A DNA stretch of 20,434 nucleotides from a virus, in IMG/VR virus record IMGVR_UViG_3300037070_002618, positions 1-20,434 of that record. One strand, 5' to 3'. This document shows positions 2,290 through 20,434 of this stretch, in pieces. Positions within the stretch are counted from its first letter, which is position 1; the number at the start of each line of letters is the position of its first letter. The notes beneath the pieces are model-generated. The model did not search any database and was not told where the DNA came from. It saw nothing but the letters and a program-made list of their open reading frames with translations. The position numbers and the translations under genes are program-made.

Positions 2290-3483
2290 ATGCTCACCTT
2301 GCAATTTTCCGGCAATGCCACGACAGGCCAGGTAAAAGAGATTACACACGGGGGCAGGCGTTATCTGGTTTCTCCTGTGGTGGCATTGCGTGAAGGCATT
2401 CTTAACGACACGTACGTGTCAGCCGCCGAGTTTAGCAAGTTCGCCTCTTCATGGCAGGGCAGACCCGTTCCCATTTCACATCCCAGGGCCGATGGCTTGC
2501 CCACCAGCGCCAACACGCCCGACATCTGGGCCACGGACGTACTAGGCCATTTCTGGAATGTAGCCGTTGACGGCGGCGCGCTCAAGGGCGAAATCTGGAT
2601 TGACCTCGACAAGGCGCAAACGATGGGCGAGCGCGCCGCTACCGTCATCAACCGCTTGCGGCAAGGCGGACAGATGGAAGTGTCAACCGGCTATTTCTGC
2701 GAGATGGAGGCAACGCCGGGAACCTATAACGGTGCGGCCTACGGCGGCATTGCTCGCAACATTCGCCCCGACCATTTGGCCTTGTTGCCGGATGAGATTG
2801 GCGCCTGTAGTTGGGCGGACGGCTGCGGTACGCCGCGTGTGAACAGCGAGTGCGGATGTCAGGAGCGATCTATGAGCGAAGAAACGCCGGCAGACGTGTC
2901 TGCCAACGAAAGAAATTTATTCGACAAATTTTTGGGATGGCTTGGCGGACAGAAGTCGCCAGAGGAAACAATTTTAGTGCACCAGGAGAGTGATATGAAC
3001 AAAGAACAGCTTATTGCCGGGCTGGTCGCCAATGCCAAATGCAAGTTTAGCAAGGACAAATTGCAGACTTGGGCCGAGGGCGACTTGCAAGTATTACAGG
3101 ACAGTTTGGGCGAGGCGGAACCTGTGGCAGAGCCTACACCTGAGCCGGAAGCGCCTCACGCTATCCACCGCCCAGAAACCGTGCCTACCCTGTCGCCGGA
3201 ACTAGAGGCGCGTCTGGCTGGGCTGGAAAGCCTGCTCAAGGGACTCAGCGCCAACAGCGACCGGGAGAAGGCGGAACTGGTCAGCGCCATCGTCGCCAAT
3301 AGCCACGGCGCCTGGAGCGAGGCCGATTTGATGCGCCATGACCTGCCCAAGCTGAACCAGGTTTATAGCAGCTATCTGCCGCGTGACTATTCCGGCAACG
3401 GCGGCGCCTGGCGCACCACTGACCCGGAAGAGGAAGAGCTACTTATGAAGTGGCCGGATGAGTTCAAGAAGTTGGGGGTCTAA
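2290..3483 (+). CDS. Capsid maturation protease (DUF2213-like) fused to scaffold
   Basis: The 397-residue protein starts at ATG 2290, with CTGGAG 10 nt upstream. Residues 1-190 resemble DUF2213 prohead proteases: a VSPVVALREGILN start, 'GRPVPISHPRA', a central 'STGYF' segment where a catalytic Ser could lie, and 'RPDHLALLPDEIGAC'. Residues 195-397 are low-complexity and acidic (Glu/Pro-rich near 280-300) and then helical, as expected of a scaffold. The protease would cut scaffold and capsid delta domains inside the procapsid. Two internal in-frame ATGs, each with AGGAG 6 nt upstream, suggest that the scaffold is also made separately. The fusion layout is like lambda gpC/Nu3, with an unrelated sequence. 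Catalytic residues were not verified. Confidence 0.8.
   Translation: MLTLQFSGNATTGQVKEITHGGRRYLVSPVVALREGILNDTYVSAAEFSKFASSWQGRPVPISHPRADGLPTSANTPDIWATDVLGHFWNVAVDGGALKGEIWIDLDKAQTMGERAATVINRLRQGGQMEVSTGYFCEMEATPGTYNGAAYGGIARNIRPDHLALLPDEIGACSWADGCGTPRVNSECGCQERSMSEETPADVSANERNLFDKFLGWLGGQKSPEETILVHQESDMNKEQLIAGLVANAKCKFSKDKLQTWAEGDLQVLQDSLGEAEPVAEPTPEPEAPHAIHRPETVPTLSPELEARLAGLESLLKGLSANSDREKAELVSAIVANSHGAWSEADLMRHDLPKLNQVYSSYLPRDYSGNGGAWRTTDPEEEELLMKWPDEFKKLGV
2872..3483 (+). CDS. Nested in-frame scaffold product 1 (internal start)
   Basis: An internal ATG at 2872 lies in the frame of the protease-scaffold gene (codon 195) and is preceded by AGGAG at 2861-2865 with a 6-nt spacer, as good a ribosome site as most true starts here. 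It would give a 203-residue protein beginning MSEETPADVSANER, starting exactly where the DUF2213-like domain ends. This is the arrangement by which lambda makes Nu3 scaffold from within gene C. That this start is used is inference; it may be one of two alternative starts together with the one at 2995. Confidence 0.45.
   Translation: MSEETPADVSANERNLFDKFLGWLGGQKSPEETILVHQESDMNKEQLIAGLVANAKCKFSKDKLQTWAEGDLQVLQDSLGEAEPVAEPTPEPEAPHAIHRPETVPTLSPELEARLAGLESLLKGLSANSDREKAELVSAIVANSHGAWSEADLMRHDLPKLNQVYSSYLPRDYSGNGGAWRTTDPEEEELLMKWPDEFKKLGV
2995..3483 (+). CDS. Nested in-frame scaffold product 2 (internal start)
   Basis: A second internal ATG at 2995 (codon 236 of the long protein) is preceded by AGGAG at 2984-2988 with a 6-nt spacer and reads MNKEQLIAGLVANAKCKFSK. 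It would give 162 residues: a small helical N-terminal domain, an acidic Pro/Glu linker, a heptad-like helix (LEARLAGLESLLKGL) and a C-terminal basic/acidic tail. The C-terminal helix and tail match what scaffolds use to contact the capsid protein. Use of this start is inferred from the ribosome site and known scaffold gene layouts. Confidence 0.5.
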   Translation: MNKEQLIAGLVANAKCKFSKDKLQTWAEGDLQVLQDSLGEAEPVAEPTPEPEAPHAIHRPETVPTLSPELEARLAGLESLLKGLSANSDREKAELVSAIVANSHGAWSEADLMRHDLPKLNQVYSSYLPRDYSGNGGAWRTTDPEEEELLMKWPDEFKKLGV

Positions 3484-7339: not shown

Positions 7340-7744
7340 ATGGCAGCAATTAAGGGAGCCGGCAATTGCGTCGTCACGTATAACGCAATTCCTCTTTCGC
7401 CGTACATCAACAGCGCCGATATGACCAATACGATTGCAGAACTAGAGGCGACAGTCCTGACCAGTACGGCAGAGCAAACTATTGCAGGACTTGGCAGTTA
7501 TGAGATGCAACTCGATGGCGATTGGGACATAGCACTAGACAACGCCCTGGGGACGGATAGTATCAGCGGCACATTACGGACGGCGAGTATCAAATATGGC
7601 AGCGGGGCAGGGGCGATGGTGACGTATACGTGGGCGACCAACGCCTTTATCACCTCCTACAACATCACCACAGCGGCCAATGAGAAGATTGGCTTTAGCG
7701 CCACGCTGCGGCTGAACAATGCGCCAACCAGGGCGGTAACGTAA
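7340..7744 (+). CDS. Major tail tube-like protein
   Basis: The protein has 134 residues from ATG 7340, which has AGGAGAG 5-6 nt upstream (CAACAGGAGAGAACT); an upstream in-frame GTG at 7307 would overlap the previous gene and has no comparable site. The sequence pattern is that of tail tubes: 'IPLSPYINSADMTNTIAELEATVLTS', then 'AGLGSYEMQLDGDWDIALDNAL', then strands ending 'ISYN..GFSATLRLNNAP'. The strong ribosome site fits a highly expressed structural protein, and the gene directly precedes the frameshifted assembly chaperone, as in lambda (V-G-GT-H order). The stop overlaps the next ATG as TAATG. Confidence 0.75.
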   Translation: MAAIKGAGNCVVTYNAIPLSPYINSADMTNTIAELEATVLTSTAEQTIAGLGSYEMQLDGDWDIALDNALGTDSISGTLRTASIKYGSGAGAMVTYTWATNAFITSYNITTAANEKIGFSATLRLNNAPTRAVT

Positions 7745-8115
7745 TGCGCTACGAGTGTGATGATCCGCTCTTTGCCGGGGACTTTATCGAATTTAGCGAT
7801 ACGTTTAGCCGTGCAGAGCAGCGGGCGCTAAATGTTGAATCAGCGCGTGATGAGGCGGCTTTCTTAGATTTGCTGCGCCCGAAAATCAAGGCGTTGCATC
7901 TGAGTTGCATTGATGCCGAGGCTATTACGCGGCGGGAGGATTTTACGTCGGAACGCACCGAGGCGATGGACTTGCGCCTCTTTGGTTGGTTTGCCGTGGT
8001 GTGGGTGAGGCATCTACGCGGGTTATTAGACCTGGGAAACGCGTTAGGGCGGAACTCGTCGGCTATCTCCGTAGCGATCCGGGAGACCGCCCTGCCGAAC
8101 CTGAACCACTCCTAG
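7744..8115 (+). CDS. Tail assembly chaperone, zero-frame product (gpG-like)
   Basis: The protein has 123 residues, starting ATG in TAATG overlap with the tube gene. It is helical and acidic in the first half (DTFSRAEQRALNVESARDEAAFLDLLRPKIKAL). A long hydrophobic/basic helix (LRLFGWFAVVWVRHLRGLLDL) comes before the slippery site. It is located between tail tube and tape measure, the usual place of the gpG/gpGT pair, which binds the tape measure and recruits tube subunits. At GGGAAAC (8034-8040) a fraction of ribosomes should shift to the -1 frame and make the longer product. If they do not shift, 25 further residues follow before TAG at 8113-8115. Confidence 0.78.
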   Translation: MRYECDDPLFAGDFIEFSDTFSRAEQRALNVESARDEAAFLDLLRPKIKALHLSCIDAEAITRREDFTSERTEAMDLRLFGWFAVVWVRHLRGLLDLGNALGRNSSAISVAIRETALPNLNHS

Positions 8116-8330
8116 ACGCTTGGCTCTTAGACCTGTTCCCAGGCCGCACGCTTGAGGAGCTTGACGAGATGGACTTAAACCGCCTGTACCGGGCCAAAAT
8201 TGCGGCGCGGATGCAAGCGGTTGAGGGACGGCGTAAGCGGTTCTTGGAGGGCAAGCTCAAAAGCAAGGATATTGAGGCTGATGAGTGGAAGCTAATCGTT
8301 GCGATGGATGAATGGGCGCAGGAGGATTAG
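7744..8330 (+). CDS. Tail assembly chaperone, -1 frameshift fusion (gpGT-like)
   Basis: Reading zero frame from 7744 to 8040, then -1 from C8040, gives a 195-residue fusion: 99 residues of the gpG-like part followed by 96 residues beginning RVRAELVGYLRSDPGDR and ending VAMDEWAQED at TAG 8328-8330. The -1 extension is helical and charged (LDEMDLNRLYRAKIAARMQAVEGRRKRF), with no good ribosome site or start of its own near the junction, which is why I read it as a frameshift extension. The junction is GGGAAAC in the phase G.GGA.AAC, followed after 5 nt by a GC-rich stem. In lambda the T extension binds the tape measure. The fusion is inferred, not observed. Confidence 0.75.
8034..8103 (+). promoter_or_regulatory. 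Programmed -1 ribosomal frameshift signal
   Basis: The heptamer GGGAAAC (8034-8040) lies in the phase G GGA AAC, so both tRNAs can re-pair one base back (GGG, AAA). It differs from the lambda G/T site GGGAAAG only in the last base. Five bases downstream starts AGGGCGG (8046-8052), which pairs perfectly with CCGCCCT (8097-8103). The 44-nt loop holds smaller inverted repeats, so a branched stem or pseudoknot is possible. The zero frame has a stop at 8113 and the -1 frame is open to 8330. Confidence 0.82.
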
Positions 8331-8827
8331 AGCTTTCCGCTACAGGATGCAATCACATATTCGCCTGTCGATTTCGTCTCATAGGTCAGGATGTCATCGA
8401 CAAAGATTTGGCAGGAGATCGTCGTAAAGTTCTCGTCATTTTGCACGGAGAGATAGAGGAAGTCGCCGCGCTGAGCCGTGCGTGAATCAATCGTTACGGT
8501 TGTTGAGTTACTACAAGCACTGACATCTTTTTGCGCCGTGCCATTGGGCATTTTATAGGTAGTGCCAATGCTGTGGCAGCCGGATTGCAAGACGGAGACT
8601 TTATAGACAACTTCATGGGCATCGGCATTGACAGATTGAGAGAAATCATAGGTTTCAACGGGCTTCCTCGCCGGCAGCCTGCTCTTACCTGTTGCTGTGG
8701 TCAGCGTGTGGCCGTTATAGCCCGGGAGCCCACTGGGCGCAGCCTTCTGGCTAGCAGTGGCATAGGTCGCCAACACAAAGACAAACAAGCCAATAACGAC
8801 AAGAACGGCAATCATAAACGGTTTCAC
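8327..8827 (-). CDS. Membrane-anchored cargo protein with MmpS-like beta domain
   Basis: The protein has 166 residues on the minus strand. The start is GTG (8827-8825) directly after the stop of the upstream minus gene, chosen because MKPFMIAVLVVIG then parallels MKTFGIIALLVIG of that gene; an ATG at 8815 is the alternative. One N-terminal membrane helix (residues 4-24) is followed by an Ala/Pro/Gly linker and a beta domain from about 75. That domain contains VVYKVSV, a SRTAQRGDFLYLSVQNDENFT run, CQIFVDD and EYVIASCSG, resembling MmpS-like/accessory beta-sandwich domains common in bacterial surface proteins. It has four Cys residues that could pair. It lies antisense inside the tail operon; its TAA overlaps the chaperone TAG (TTAG, 8327-8330). 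A role in superinfection exclusion or host-surface alteration is inference. Confidence 0.7.
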   Translation of the reverse strand: MKPFMIAVLVVIGLFVFVLATYATASQKAAPSGLPGYNGHTLTTATGKSRLPARKPVETYDFSQSVNADAHEVVYKVSVLQSGCHSIGTTYKMPNGTAQKDVSACSNSTTVTIDSRTAQRGDFLYLSVQNDENFTTISCQIFVDDILTYETKSTGEYVIASCSGKL

Positions 8828-9172
8828 TTAGTACACCCACTTGGCATTGACGTAACCCGTCACTTTATTGCAGTTCAGCAAATAGAAGCTCATGTGGATA
8901 CCTTCGATTACAACAGGCTTTGCGTCTCGCAATTTTATGCACTTTAGTCCATCGGGAAATTCAGTGACTTGGCCTTCATCGCCTGGCCCAACGCGTTCAA
9001 ACATTTGCACGATGGAGTTACCGGGGGCGGCTTTGAGGTATACGGAGTTCTGATTGCGTGACGTGACCTGCGGAGCGGACGCAACTGTAACAGGATGGGC
9101 GTCTTGATACGTCATGGCGACAAACCAGGCCATACCAATGACGAGTAGAGCGATGATACCGAACGTTTTCAT
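8828..9172 (-). CDS. Membrane-anchored cargo protein with SH3-like domain
   Basis: The protein has 114 residues on the minus strand, from ATG 9172-9170. The frame is open further upstream, but that part crosses the leader hairpin, so I take MKTFGIIALLVIGMAWFVAMTY as start: an N-terminal membrane helix with a short basic N-terminus. The upstream AGGAAAG (9190-9184) has an 11-nt spacer, which is long. After a Ser/Thr/Gln linker, residues about 45-114 look like a bacterial SH3-type barrel (VYLKAAPGNSIVQMFERVGPGDEGQV, ending YVNAKWVY), expected outside the membrane. It forms a two-gene cassette with the next minus gene, sharing a similar anchor. Function is unknown; surface/exclusion roles are inference. 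Confidence 0.7.
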   Translation of the reverse strand: MKTFGIIALLVIGMAWFVAMTYQDAHPVTVASAPQVTSRNQNSVYLKAAPGNSIVQMFERVGPGDEGQVTEFPDGLKCIKLRDAKPVVIEGIHMSFYLLNCNKVTGYVNAKWVY

Positions 9173-9201
9173 TTTTGAACATTCTTTCCTGAAATAAAAA
9201 A

Positions 9202-9256
9202 CTCCTACCGGAGTGACCGTGCAGCTTGTCGAAGGCGCGTGGGTCTCCAGTAGGAG
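9202..9256 (-). promoter_or_regulatory. Leader hairpin with terminator-like U tract (possible attenuator)
   Basis: On the minus strand CTCCTACTGGAG (9256-9245) pairs over 12 positions with CTCCGGTAGGAG (9213-9202), with a single G-U pair, and is followed directly by six T (9201-9196). The 31-nt loop contains the palindrome-like CTTCGACAAGCT. It has the form of an intrinsic terminator but lies between the predicted promoter and the ribosome site of the cargo gene, and the predicted transcript start falls at its first bases. An attenuator, a 5' stabilising hairpin or a small terminated RNA are the options. Confidence 0.6.
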
Positions 9257-9262
9257 CAAACA

Positions 9263-12304: not shown

Positions 12305-12396
12305 AGGCTGTTAGCTGTTGGCTGTTAGCTGTTAGCCGGAAAAAGCTGTTAGCCAACAGCCTACCGCCAACAGCCAACAGCCAAGGAACGAAGTGA
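12301..12396 (+). CDS. 31-codon micro-ORF running through the gene-less repeat element
   Basis: The ATG at 12301 overlaps the previous stop as ATGA. The frame MKAVSCWLLAVSRKKLLANS... is then open across the whole repeat element and stops at TGA 12394-12396, four bases before the ATG of the hub gene. The encoded peptide is a translation of the heptamer repeats and has no recognisable domain. Its value may be in keeping ribosomes on the message between two coupled genes rather than in the peptide. Whether it is translated is unknown. Confidence 0.3.
   Translation: MKAVSCWLLAVSRKKLLANSLPPTANSQGTK
12306..12383. repeat. Gene-less copy of the GCTGTTR inverted-repeat element (MITE-like)
   Basis: Four tandem heptamers GCTGTTR (12307-12334) plus GCC are followed by a spacer (CGGAAAAA), one more GCTGTTA (12345-12351), GC and four inverted heptamers of the form CAACAGC, the second degenerate (CTACCGC), ending at 12382. 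The first 31 bases pair with the last 31 at 26 positions, so it can form a long hairpin in DNA or RNA. The right half has the same order as the right end of the larger element at 14918-15394 (single forward heptamer, then four reverse ones). It lies exactly between the stop of the distal tail gene and the hub gene. Confidence 0.85.
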
Positions 12397-14553: not shown

Positions 14554-14915
14554 TGGCCTATAGCGTACCGCCACAGTGGGCGCATTTGGAATACCCCACC
14601 GCCGCCAAAATGAACCTCTACAAGGACGGCCTTGACGCCGCCTATGCCTTGACCGGCAGCGCCAAAATCCAGGTGGCCGTCTGTATGCGCATGGCAACGG
14701 TACAGGGCTATTACTTCGTCAACCGCTGGCGTTGGCTGATCTATCTAGGCTCCGCACGTATCGACGACCCGGCCGGCGTCAGTGACGAGGTGAGCTTGCC
14801 GGACAATGGCGGCTGGTCTGCCTATGACCTGCTGCAGGTAGATTGGCTCTACCCCGGCAAGCTCTACCAGGTGCAAGAGGCGATGTGCTGCTTTGAGGAT
14901 TATGAGGGCTTTTGA
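14553..14915 (+). CDS. Small tail-tip protein, partner of the preceding gene
   Basis: The protein has 120 residues, starting in a TAATG overlap. The N terminus SVPPQWAHLEYPTAAKMNLYKDGLDAAYAL resembles the opening of the preceding protein and of other phage proteins with a 'P-x-(W/F)-x6-TA-x3-N' segment, which I read as an attachment segment to the tail tip. A beta-rich C-terminal half (KIQVAVCMRMATVQGYYFVNRWRWLIYLGSARIDDP, then YDLLQVDWLYPGKLYQVQEAMCCF) follows, rich in aromatics. No carbohydrate module pattern is present. The stop TGA at 14913-14915 is immediately followed by the repeat element, and an ATG at 14915 with GAGGG upstream begins an 11-codon ORF into it. Confidence 0.65.
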   Translation: MAYSVPPQWAHLEYPTAAKMNLYKDGLDAAYALTGSAKIQVAVCMRMATVQGYYFVNRWRWLIYLGSARIDDPAGVSDEVSLPDNGGWSAYDLLQVDWLYPGKLYQVQEAMCCFEDYEGF

Positions 14916-14921
14916 TGGCTG

Positions 14922-15299
14922 TTAGCTGTTGGCTGTTGGCTGTTGGCTAACAGCAGAGAGAAACGAGCGAAGACGACGTAAGAGCGATTGGCACTGCTCA
15001 CGCAATTCTTGCATTTGTTCGCTAGTAATGTAGCCAAGCTGTTGGGCAATGAGGAGTTGGGTATCTACTTCAGCAGCCGAGCCGATAGCGATACGCAGAT
15101 GACGACCCAGGATAGGGTCTGTTCGCTGGGCATAGCCTTCAGCAATATTGGAGGGAATTGATACTGCGGCTCGTTGAATCTGGCTCGTTAGGCCGAACCG
15201 TTCGTCGGGTGGAAATTGTCGAGTGGATTGATAGATTGCAGTGACAAATCGAATGCCATCTTGCCACACTTCTAAGTCACGATATTCTTTGGTTGCCAT
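14922..15299 (-). CDS. Four-helix-bundle protein, 23S rRNA intervening-sequence (IVP/TIGR02436) family
   Basis: The protein has 125 residues on the minus strand. Start ATG 15299-15297 has AGGAAAG (15312-15306) with a 6-nt spacer; the frame is open further upstream through the repeat, but homologues begin near MATKEYRDLEVWQDG. Features in order: 'LEVWQDGIRFVTAIYQSTRQFP', 'ERFGLTSQIQRAAVSIPSNIAEG' (the family signature), 'RHLRIAIGSAAEVDTQLLIAQQLGYI', and a last helix LREQCQSLLRRLRSFL. It forms a pentameric four-helix bundle in known structures; the family includes Avd, which helps reverse transcriptase in diversity-generating retroelements. The last residues QQPTANS and the stop are encoded by the heptamer repeat itself. 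Nucleic-acid binding is known for relatives; its role here is unknown. Confidence 0.85.
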   Translation of the reverse strand: MATKEYRDLEVWQDGIRFVTAIYQSTRQFPPDERFGLTSQIQRAAVSIPSNIAEGYAQRTDPILGRHLRIAIGSAAEVDTQLLIAQQLGYITSEQMQELREQCQSLLRRLRSFLSAVSQQPTANS

Positions 15300-15338
15300 G
15301 AGGTGCTTTCCTATGTTAGCGACGATGTTTACTCGTGT

Positions 15339-15347
15339 AGTATACCA
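15339..15347 (-). promoter_or_regulatory. Extended -10 promoter inside the IVP element
   Basis: On the minus strand TGGTATACT (15347-15339) is a TGN-extended -10 box with 5 of 6 matches to TATAAT, 39 bases upstream of the ATG of the four-helix-bundle gene. No good -35 is visible in the repeat upstream, as is common for extended -10 promoters. The element would thus express its gene against the phage late transcription. Confidence 0.5.
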
Positions 15348-15400
15348 TATTTCCGGCTGTCTGGCTAACAGCCAACAGCCAACAGCCAACGGCCTCTAAA

Positions 15401-19510: not shown

Positions 19511-19623
19511 GTACTGCTGCCCAAGCGGCGGCGGAAACAAGGAGGCTATTATCGCTATTTCATTCTTACAACCACCTGGTGACGGCGGCGCTTAGGGTAT
19601 ATGTTTCCATCTTTTTCGCTTGA
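19507..19623 (+). CDS. Tiny ORF after the fibre, possibly truncated by the HNH insertion
   Basis: The ORF starts in an ATGA overlap with the fibre stop (the same coupling used elsewhere in this operon) and encodes 38 residues, MSTAAQAAAETRRLLSLFHSYNHLVTAALR.... The first 29 residues are an Ala-rich amphipathic helix like the N termini of small tail accessory proteins. The remaining residues read into the 3' end of the opposite-strand HNH gene (its stop is at 19594-19592). It may be a real small gene, or the 5' stub of a gene cut by the HNH insertion. No family is recognised. Confidence 0.4.
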   Translation: MSTAAQAAAETRRLLSLFHSYNHLVTAALRVYVSIFFA

Positions 19624-20251
19624 CAATATCGCTGATGGTTGTAGGAGTTACGTGATATTGGTCGGCAAGTTTTTTTTGAGTTGACCCTAATGAGACATCG
19701 TGACGGATTTGCCTGACGGCTTCATCAGTCAATTTGGCAATAGGATTCTGTTCGCCAGGTTTGCTCACGTAGCGTCCGCGCCCTTTCTTCTCCTTGTCGT
19801 GCATATTATCGGAGTTAGTGCCAAGAAACAGATGATTCGGATTCACACAGCCAGGGACATCGCAACGATGCAGAACAAACAACCCGTCAGGGATAGGGCC
19901 AATGTGTATTTGCCAGGAAAAGCGGTGCGTTCCAATCATCCGTGTTCCATCATGAATGACGCCGTATCCAAAATTGTGTTTTGCGCCTTGCCAAAGCCAA
20001 CACTTGTCGGGGGCATCCCGTTTGACGTACTTCCAGAAGCGGGTGATGGGATCAATGATCCGTGGAGGGCTGTCATTATGGCCACGTATAAAGCAGATTG
20101 GTTGGCCCTTAATCCAGCCATTTCCTTTGTGACTTCGTTTCGCTATCGTCGTGGGTTGCCCACATCCGCACATACACAAGCCGGATGGATTGGGGCCATC
20201 TTGAGGGAATTCAAATTGAGGTTGGGTAAATTTTGGGGTATGCTTCGACAC
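19592..20251 (-). CDS. HNH homing endonuclease-like protein with C-terminal helix-turn-helix
   Basis: The protein has 219 residues on the minus strand from GTG (20251-20249), chosen because AAGGAGG (20266-20260) lies 8 bases upstream; the frame is open to an ATG at 20374, which would add 41 residues crossing the leader. The N-terminal 'CMCGCGQPT..IAKRS' plus 'GWIKGQPICFIRGHN' (C26, C28, C30) is a known small zinc-finger-like domain of phage HNH proteins. The nuclease core follows: 'CWLWQGAK', 'HRFSW', H128-R-C, 'CVNPNHL' (N137, H140) and 'GTNSDN'. A C-terminal HTH (AVRQIRHDVSLGSTQKKLADQYHVTPTTISDIVKRKRW) contacts DNA. It would cut an unoccupied junction and promote its own spread. It is between two structural genes, opposite strand. 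Confidence 0.85.
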   Translation of the reverse strand: MSKHTPKFTQPQFEFPQDGPNPSGLCMCGCGQPTTIAKRSHKGNGWIKGQPICFIRGHNDSPPRIIDPITRFWKYVKRDAPDKCWLWQGAKHNFGYGVIHDGTRMIGTHRFSWQIHIGPIPDGLFVLHRCDVPGCVNPNHLFLGTNSDNMHDKEKKGRGRYVSKPGEQNPIAKLTDEAVRQIRHDVSLGSTQKKLADQYHVTPTTISDIVKRKRWKHIP

Positions 20252-20282
20252 GTCGATTTCCTCCTTGTAGGAATCGGCCACG

Positions 20283-20310
20283 CCACGGGCTGTTAGAAGC
20301 AGCGCCGTGG
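20283..20310. promoter_or_regulatory. Stable hairpin in the HNH gene leader
   Basis: CCACGGGCTG (20283-20292) and CAGCGCCGTGG (20300-20310) form a 10-bp stem with one bulged G and a 7-nt loop (TTAGAAG); a further G-C pair extends it at 20282/20311. It lies between the predicted minus-strand promoter and the HNH ribosome site, without a T tract, so it is not an intrinsic terminator. It could limit translation or be a cleavage-recognition structure of the HNH protein; both are inference. Confidence 0.5.
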
Positions 20311-20322
20311 CAATTCTATTGG

Positions 20323-20340
20323 TGGTTATATTATACCACG
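20323..20340 (-). promoter_or_regulatory. Extended -10 promoter with near-palindrome upstream of HNH gene
   Basis: On the minus strand TGGTATAAT (20338-20330) is a perfect TGN-extended consensus -10. A weak -35 (TGGCCA, 16-base spacer) lies upstream. The -10 sits inside the near-palindrome GTGGTTATATTATACCAC (20323-20340), which could be an operator for a dimeric repressor. It is the best promoter in the window. Confidence 0.65.
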
Positions 20341-20350
20341 AGGAGGACTT

Positions 20351-20434
20351 GTGGCCATATCGTTTTTGATGCAACAGGCGCTCAGCACAGCGCCGGACTT
20401 TAACGCACAGACCAATGCCATCGTGCAGCGAGAC
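20351..20434 (+). CDS. Start of next structural gene (3'-truncated by window edge)
   Basis: GTG at 20351 has AGGAGG (20341-20346) four bases upstream and opens a frame MAISFLMQQALSTAPDFNAQTNAIVQRD that is still open at the end of the window (28 codons). An in-frame ATG at 20369 is the alternative. Too little is visible to assign a family; being the gene after the tail fibre it is most likely another tail protein or the first gene of the lysis/late end. Its ribosome site overlaps the start side of the HNH promoter palindrome. Confidence 0.6.
   Translation, partial: MAISFLMQQALSTAPDFNAQTNAIVQRD

Follow-up and report, generated by a model that had tools for sequence, protein, structure and literature searches.

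The insert that separates two tail-region genes of a viral contig is a small mobile element, and it represents a real class of mobile elements. Probably it is a heptamer-ended element for which the four-helix-bundle protein that it encodes would serve as the mobility factor, the joining activity would be borrowed, and the hairpin formed in the transcript would be cut by RNase III. The evidence for mobility comes from empty sites in a phage relative and in plasmids, from a gene-less copy in the same phage, and from heptamer arrays that flank the same gene family on plasmids and chromosomes of several bacterial phyla.

The element in the phage tail operon

The source record (IMGVR_UViG_3300037070_002618) is a 20.4-kb viral contig and a fragment; by "the window" we refer to this whole stretch of 20,434 nucleotides. 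The structural module around the element encodes a portal, a major tail protein and a tail protein (PHROGs), and the 479-bp insert lies between a tail-region stop codon (14913-14915) and the next tail-region start (15401) (Table 1). A first-pass annotation of the sequence had described inverted ends of 31 nt with 28 identities. This description was confirmed, since positions 14917-14947 and the reverse complement of 15364-15394 are identical at 28/31 positions, whereas the best inverted 31-mer had 23 identities when this 1.1 kb was randomised 40 times under a first-order Markov (dinucleotide) model. The GCTGTTR motif is found 26 times in the window, where 5.5 occurrences are expected, and its main clusters are located at 12307-12381 and 14918-15386.

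Table 1. Features of the gene-bearing and gene-less elements in the window.
Feature	Coordinates	Strand	Remarks
Whole gene-bearing element	14916..15394		Empty in relative L142; inverted arrays
Left GCTGTTR tandem array, at the 3' end of the element gene	14917..14948	+	
PF05635/TIGR02436 four-helix-bundle gene	14922..15299	-	ATG at 15299
Possible extended -10 promoter, overlapping the right array	15339..15367	-	Weak
Right GCTGTTR tandem array, reverse complement of the left, 5' of the gene	15364..15394	-	
Gene-less element, near-perfect hairpin between two other tail-region genes	12305..12384		GCTGTTR heptamers

The annotation had also placed a single minus-strand gene of the TIGR02436 family between the ends, with its stop codon within the left repeat, and both statements hold. 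The product matches PF05635 (1.1e-36) and TIGR02436 (8.9e-36), it is the only gene of the element, and no catalytic gene is present inside. Because the ORF ends at 14922, the left array contains the stop codon and encodes the final residues. The protein is related to one of solved structure, 2GSC (1.6e-28), and the solved relative is a pentameric ring. Regarding the extended -10 promoter proposed for this gene, the site is present (TG before TATACT, 9/12), but chance alone would give 0.5 such sites in this region. The predicted RNA fold of the element reaches -191.7 kcal/mol (z -3.9) and contains a long terminal stem. No relative of the protein was found among GenBank phages at E 1e-5, and Anaerolineales as the phage host are suggested only through protein relatives.

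In addition, the same phage carries a gene-less twin (Table 1), absent from the first-pass annotation, in which GCTGTTR presents the same inverted layout as in the gene-bearing element. Its predicted fold reaches -43.5 kcal/mol (z -4.2), and its site is empty in four relatives (L142, L143, L144 and L146).

Other features of the window should be mentioned. An HNH_3 endonuclease gene (PF13392, 3.2e-12; PHROG HNH families) occupies 19592-20374 on the minus strand, antisense to the tail operon, and is possibly another selfish gene. Two tandem minus-strand ORFs (8327-8827 and 8828-9259), antisense among the tail genes, have signal-peptide-like starts and gave no Pfam match. The overlapping ORFs 7744-8115 and 7986-8330 precede a tape-measure-like gene, a layout typically seen in tail assembly chaperone pairs with a frameshift.

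Empty sites, junctions and derived copies

The phage relative L142, whose neighbouring tail protein is 86% identical, is devoid of both insertions. At one of the two sites its sequence reads GAAGATAGCTAATGCC, and the genes on either side of the other site overlap as TAATG. Seven further comparisons between filled and empty sites were obtained in closely related cyanobacterial (Nostocales) plasmids; these events are few and all cyanobacterial, and junctions compared at 85-92% identity are not readable to the base. The claim of an insertion, which would have failed if all homologous phages carried the gene in place, is thus sustained by a relative that is empty twice and by the seven plasmid comparisons.

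Site A is filled in plasmids of Trichormus and Scytonema and empty in ~97%-identical plasmids of Nostoc carneum and Tolypothrix, and its junctions repeat GTAATTAA with one mismatch. At site B three Nostoc plasmids are filled and three are empty, with TTCTA repeated, and at site C, ~300 bp from site B on one plasmid, another element, with units resembling GGGAAAA, is inserted. Filled and empty versions were also found of sites E, F, G and H, where ~12, 8, 25-30 and 45 bp of the target, respectively, had been replaced, while the comparison of site D (cmr2/cmr3, PCC 7003 vs 7002) gave no junction. The target change therefore spans from 5-8 bp duplicated (sites A and B) to ~45 bp lost (site H). 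A fixed target duplication was rejected, since the junctions vary and the flanks of 57 elements present no general duplication. Targeting of hairpins or terminators as a general rule was likewise rejected (flank complementarity 4.17 vs 3.98 shuffled, 57 elements). Insertions are located between the genes of operons, as in cas6/cas4, cmr2/cmr3 and nrdB/nrdA; the first two correspond to elements L064 and L065.

Derived copies were also found. Locus L076 carries a 182-bp heptamer-ended insert within the bundle gene, i.e. a nested insertion, and L342 is an internal-deletion copy that retains its two ends but is missing most of the gene. In the close relatives L062 and L069 the array copy number differs by whole units. 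Similarly to L076, the bundle gene of L002 is interrupted at 3140-3225 by a gene-less heptamer insert that bears the units of its host element.

Heptamer arrays around related genes

According to the annotation, a lack of heptamer arrays around this gene family elsewhere would have counted against the proposal. GCTGTTR itself does not accompany the family: inverted GCTGTTR arrays with gene-size or hairpin-size spacing were found in no scanned viral contig outside this record, and the GCTGTTR arrays in 35 other viral stretches stand without a bundle gene, so that it is the arrangement, and not this heptamer, that is tied to the gene. Arrays of other heptamers, however, border the gene in several phyla. 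In two viral contigs whose protein is 53% identical, the gene is surrounded by CTGCGGA and its complement, and an Acidobacteriota relative has AAGTGAY units. Among the best-scoring gene matches of each group, which are not a random draw, period-7 arrays were detected within 150 bp in 40/56 flanks of the 28 full Anaerolineales loci, at 27/46 flanks in Acidobacteriota and at 27/54 in Verrucomicrobiota, by a simple periodicity score that misses degenerate arrays. In the Anaerolineales flanks other periods gave at most 2 arrays, and period 7 gave 4 at 500 bp and 1 at 1000 bp. HEPN genes taken as controls had arrays in 0/44 flanks (Anaerolineales) and, in a second control, in 0/22.

The two ends of one element match each other, and the heptamer sequence varies by locus. 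Each end was complementary to its own partner in 26/28 (Anaerolineales), 21/23 (Acidobacteriota) and 22/27 (Verrucomicrobiota) loci, and this complementarity far exceeds that of shuffled pairs. The unit consensus is weak, approximately RGYNRNW in gene sense (2.66 bits vs 2.1-2.45 shuffled). The unit length is not strictly fixed, as a minority of elements have units of 8 or 9 nt instead of 7 (L201, L205, L207, L208 and L231), most of them still inverted at the ends. The search against Rfam at the gathering score gave nothing in 20 loci. At L005 (986-1307), a T-box leader (RF00230; its 64.7 bits fall short of the gathering score, 93) has a gene-less heptamer array in a stem-loop and stands upstream of a gene-bearing element.

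The bundle gene is under purifying selection, copies at different sites showing a dS of ~1 and a dN/dS of 0.10-0.15. Furthermore, arrays are common only in the sampled genomes with the gene, and the sampled genomes without it are nearly array-free: there were 46 period-7 arrays in 716 kb from six Anaerolineales genomes that carry it vs 2 in 400 kb from five that do not (Poisson probability 2e-9). One genome carries 22 copies of the gene; of the arrays in the 396 kb sampled from it, the majority lack a gene, and the heptamer again varies by locus. Taken together, the empty sites in L142 and in the plasmids and the cross-phylum arrays support the earlier proposal of a selfish unit without a transposase.

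Relation to known intervening sequences and repeats

The closest known system is the intervening sequence (IVS) of Coxiella burnetii, which has 428 nt, is located in helix 45 of the 23S rRNA and carries an S23p gene and a 28-bp terminal stem (PMC4990558). It also contains tandem heptamers in strain-dependent number, and RNase III cuts at the first repeat (PMC4990558). Both elements share a homologous gene, a size of ~430-480 nt, a terminal stem (28 bp in Coxiella vs 31 in the phage) and gene-adjacent tandem heptamers of variable copy number; the Coxiella unit, GACAGAT, is near the RGYNRNW consensus, with A at the second position. The analogy with rRNA intervening sequences is thus stronger than the first-pass annotation had it. 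However, the phage element lies antisense in a protein-coding operon and not in an rRNA helix, its mobility is shown by empty sites, and a gene-less twin is present in the same genome. Of the features that define an IVS, it has the IVP/S23p protein and the long end stem and lacks the rRNA location; by location it is not an IVS, but it may work like one. Because the anatomy is the same, the Coxiella IVS looks like one niche of the element class. It should be noted that Coxiella S23p seems not to be produced (PMC4990558), which counts against the explanation proposed below. A mobile origin of IVS has already been proposed in the literature.

STRR heptamers of cyanobacteria, TAACTGA of Beggiatoaceae (PMC4679880) and GGGNATC of Xanthomonas and Nostoc (PMC4692102) are likewise tandem heptamers scattered between genes and, like the arrays of the phage element, they sometimes form inverted pairs. 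In the portions of these reports available to us they are described without a gene, a mobility mechanism or a link to a bundle protein (PMC4679880, PMC4692102), and the TAACTGA and GGGNATC repeats are probably gene-less forms. IVP genes have also been noted in cas loci (PMC3936711, PMC10910872), which fits insertion, and the elements found here between cas genes (L064 and L065) may explain those reports. In the open-access literature we found no paper that joins heptamers, bundle gene and mobility; an earlier description in subscription papers or preprints is possible.

Alternative explanations

REP hairpins are passengers of their RAYTs. In a similar manner, the element could be carried passively by Y1 (REP/IS200-like) tyrosine transposases acting in trans, the bundle protein merely regulating or protecting the hairpin; we consider this rather unlikely, although it is the best of the alternatives. 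REP/RAYT elements and MITEs are likewise short hairpins with gene-less copies that rely on a trans factor. In contrast, the phage element has no transposase and is built of tandem 7-nt units whose sequence is element-specific, and the heptamer elements make no fixed target duplication. In even draws of 60-100 genomes, the bundle gene was present in 66/101 Anaerolineales, 31/60 Acidobacteriota and 41/59 Verrucomicrobiota. Y1 genes were commoner in carriers in the three groups: 56/66 vs 14/35 non-carriers (odds ratio 8.4), 25/31 vs 10/29 (7.9) and 32/41 vs 7/18 (5.6), respectively, and the link persists within genome-size classes (p 0.0006, 0.004 and 0.04). The reverse-transcriptase and DDE controls, given below, show no significant link. 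On the other hand, no Y1 gene was detected in 10/66, 6/31 and 9/41 carriers (15-22%; 25 in total), most genomes being drafts, so that the association is a lead and not a proof. Moreover, target deletions of 12-45 bp are atypical of Y1 enzymes, and HEPN co-occurs with the bundle gene (p 0.018), so lineage effects may lie behind the Y1 link.

Copying of the RNA by a reverse transcriptase in trans is improbable. Such a process would resemble that of Avd in diversity-generating retroelements, which is a homologous four-helix-bundle protein (PHROG 3206 matches the element protein at 1.7e-5), and irregular target duplications and deletions would be the product of target-primed synthesis. However, RVT_1 presented no association (19/66 carriers vs 12/35 non-carriers in Anaerolineales), which leaves a reverse-transcriptase helper without statistical support, and none was detected in the genome that has 22 copies. 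The scan of window genes, which covered a subset on a contig that is itself a fragment, gave no reverse transcriptase. A DDE-type insertion sequence or MITE was rejected, PF05635 being the only gene and the junctions ranging from an 8-bp duplication to a 45-bp loss with no fixed duplication; this irregularity speaks against a standard DDE transposase. DDE_Tnp_1 was slightly commoner in carriers (35/66 vs 13/35), a difference that is not significant (p 0.15).

Even less probable is that the heptamers are cis-regulatory repeats with the bundle protein as regulator, movement being incidental through recombination between repeats. Published heptamers are mostly situated just 5' of start codons, with a translational role proposed (PMC4679880), and several 5' arrays resemble ribosome-binding sites (AGGAG before ATG). 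Nevertheless, the gene is enclosed by arrays in inverted orientation, there are both empty sites and nested copies, and units vary among the elements of one genome. Finally, an old resident phage gene whose flanking repeats grew in place by slippage would agree with the whole-unit change between L062 and L069, but relatives without the insert, the inverted orientation of one array to the other and the same arrangement in unrelated genomes leave this idea almost no probability.

Proposed mechanism and significance

For the heptamer-ended mobile element, we propose that the bundle protein, a pentameric ring in the solved relative, would recognise the folded heptamer hairpin and act as the element's own mobility factor. 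Cutting and joining would be borrowed from the host; the leading candidate for both would be a tyrosine transposase of the Y1 type that works on single-stranded hairpins, and the second, break repair. In the transcript, the ends would pair over ~31-43 bp, and RNase III would excise the hairpin and split the flanking messages, as for rRNA intervening sequences, a removal that would render the insertion tolerable. Points against this model are the lack of a catalytic gene in the element, the variable target changes and the carriers in which no Y1 gene was detected.

A bolder version can be put forward tentatively, as a possibility that we hold to be less probable than its converse. It supposes a transposase-less class in which the four-helix-bundle ring, together with host replication or repair, moves hairpins with tandem ends of 7-9-nt units. 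In this version, one end would serve as the template for the other, which would renew the tandem ends and maintain their complementarity. If true, this version would account for intervening sequences in rRNA, for the heptamer repeats of cyanobacteria and for the so-called CRISPR-linked IVP genes.

To our knowledge, 23S rRNA intervening sequences have been studied for decades without an explained origin, and tandem heptamers have been catalogued in many genomes without a cause. The results presented here tie both to one protein family. Since the gene is present in 66/101, 31/60 and 41/59 of the genomes drawn, an abundant element class seems to have been overlooked. With the pairs of filled and empty sites, the old question of the mobility of intervening sequences is now directly testable.
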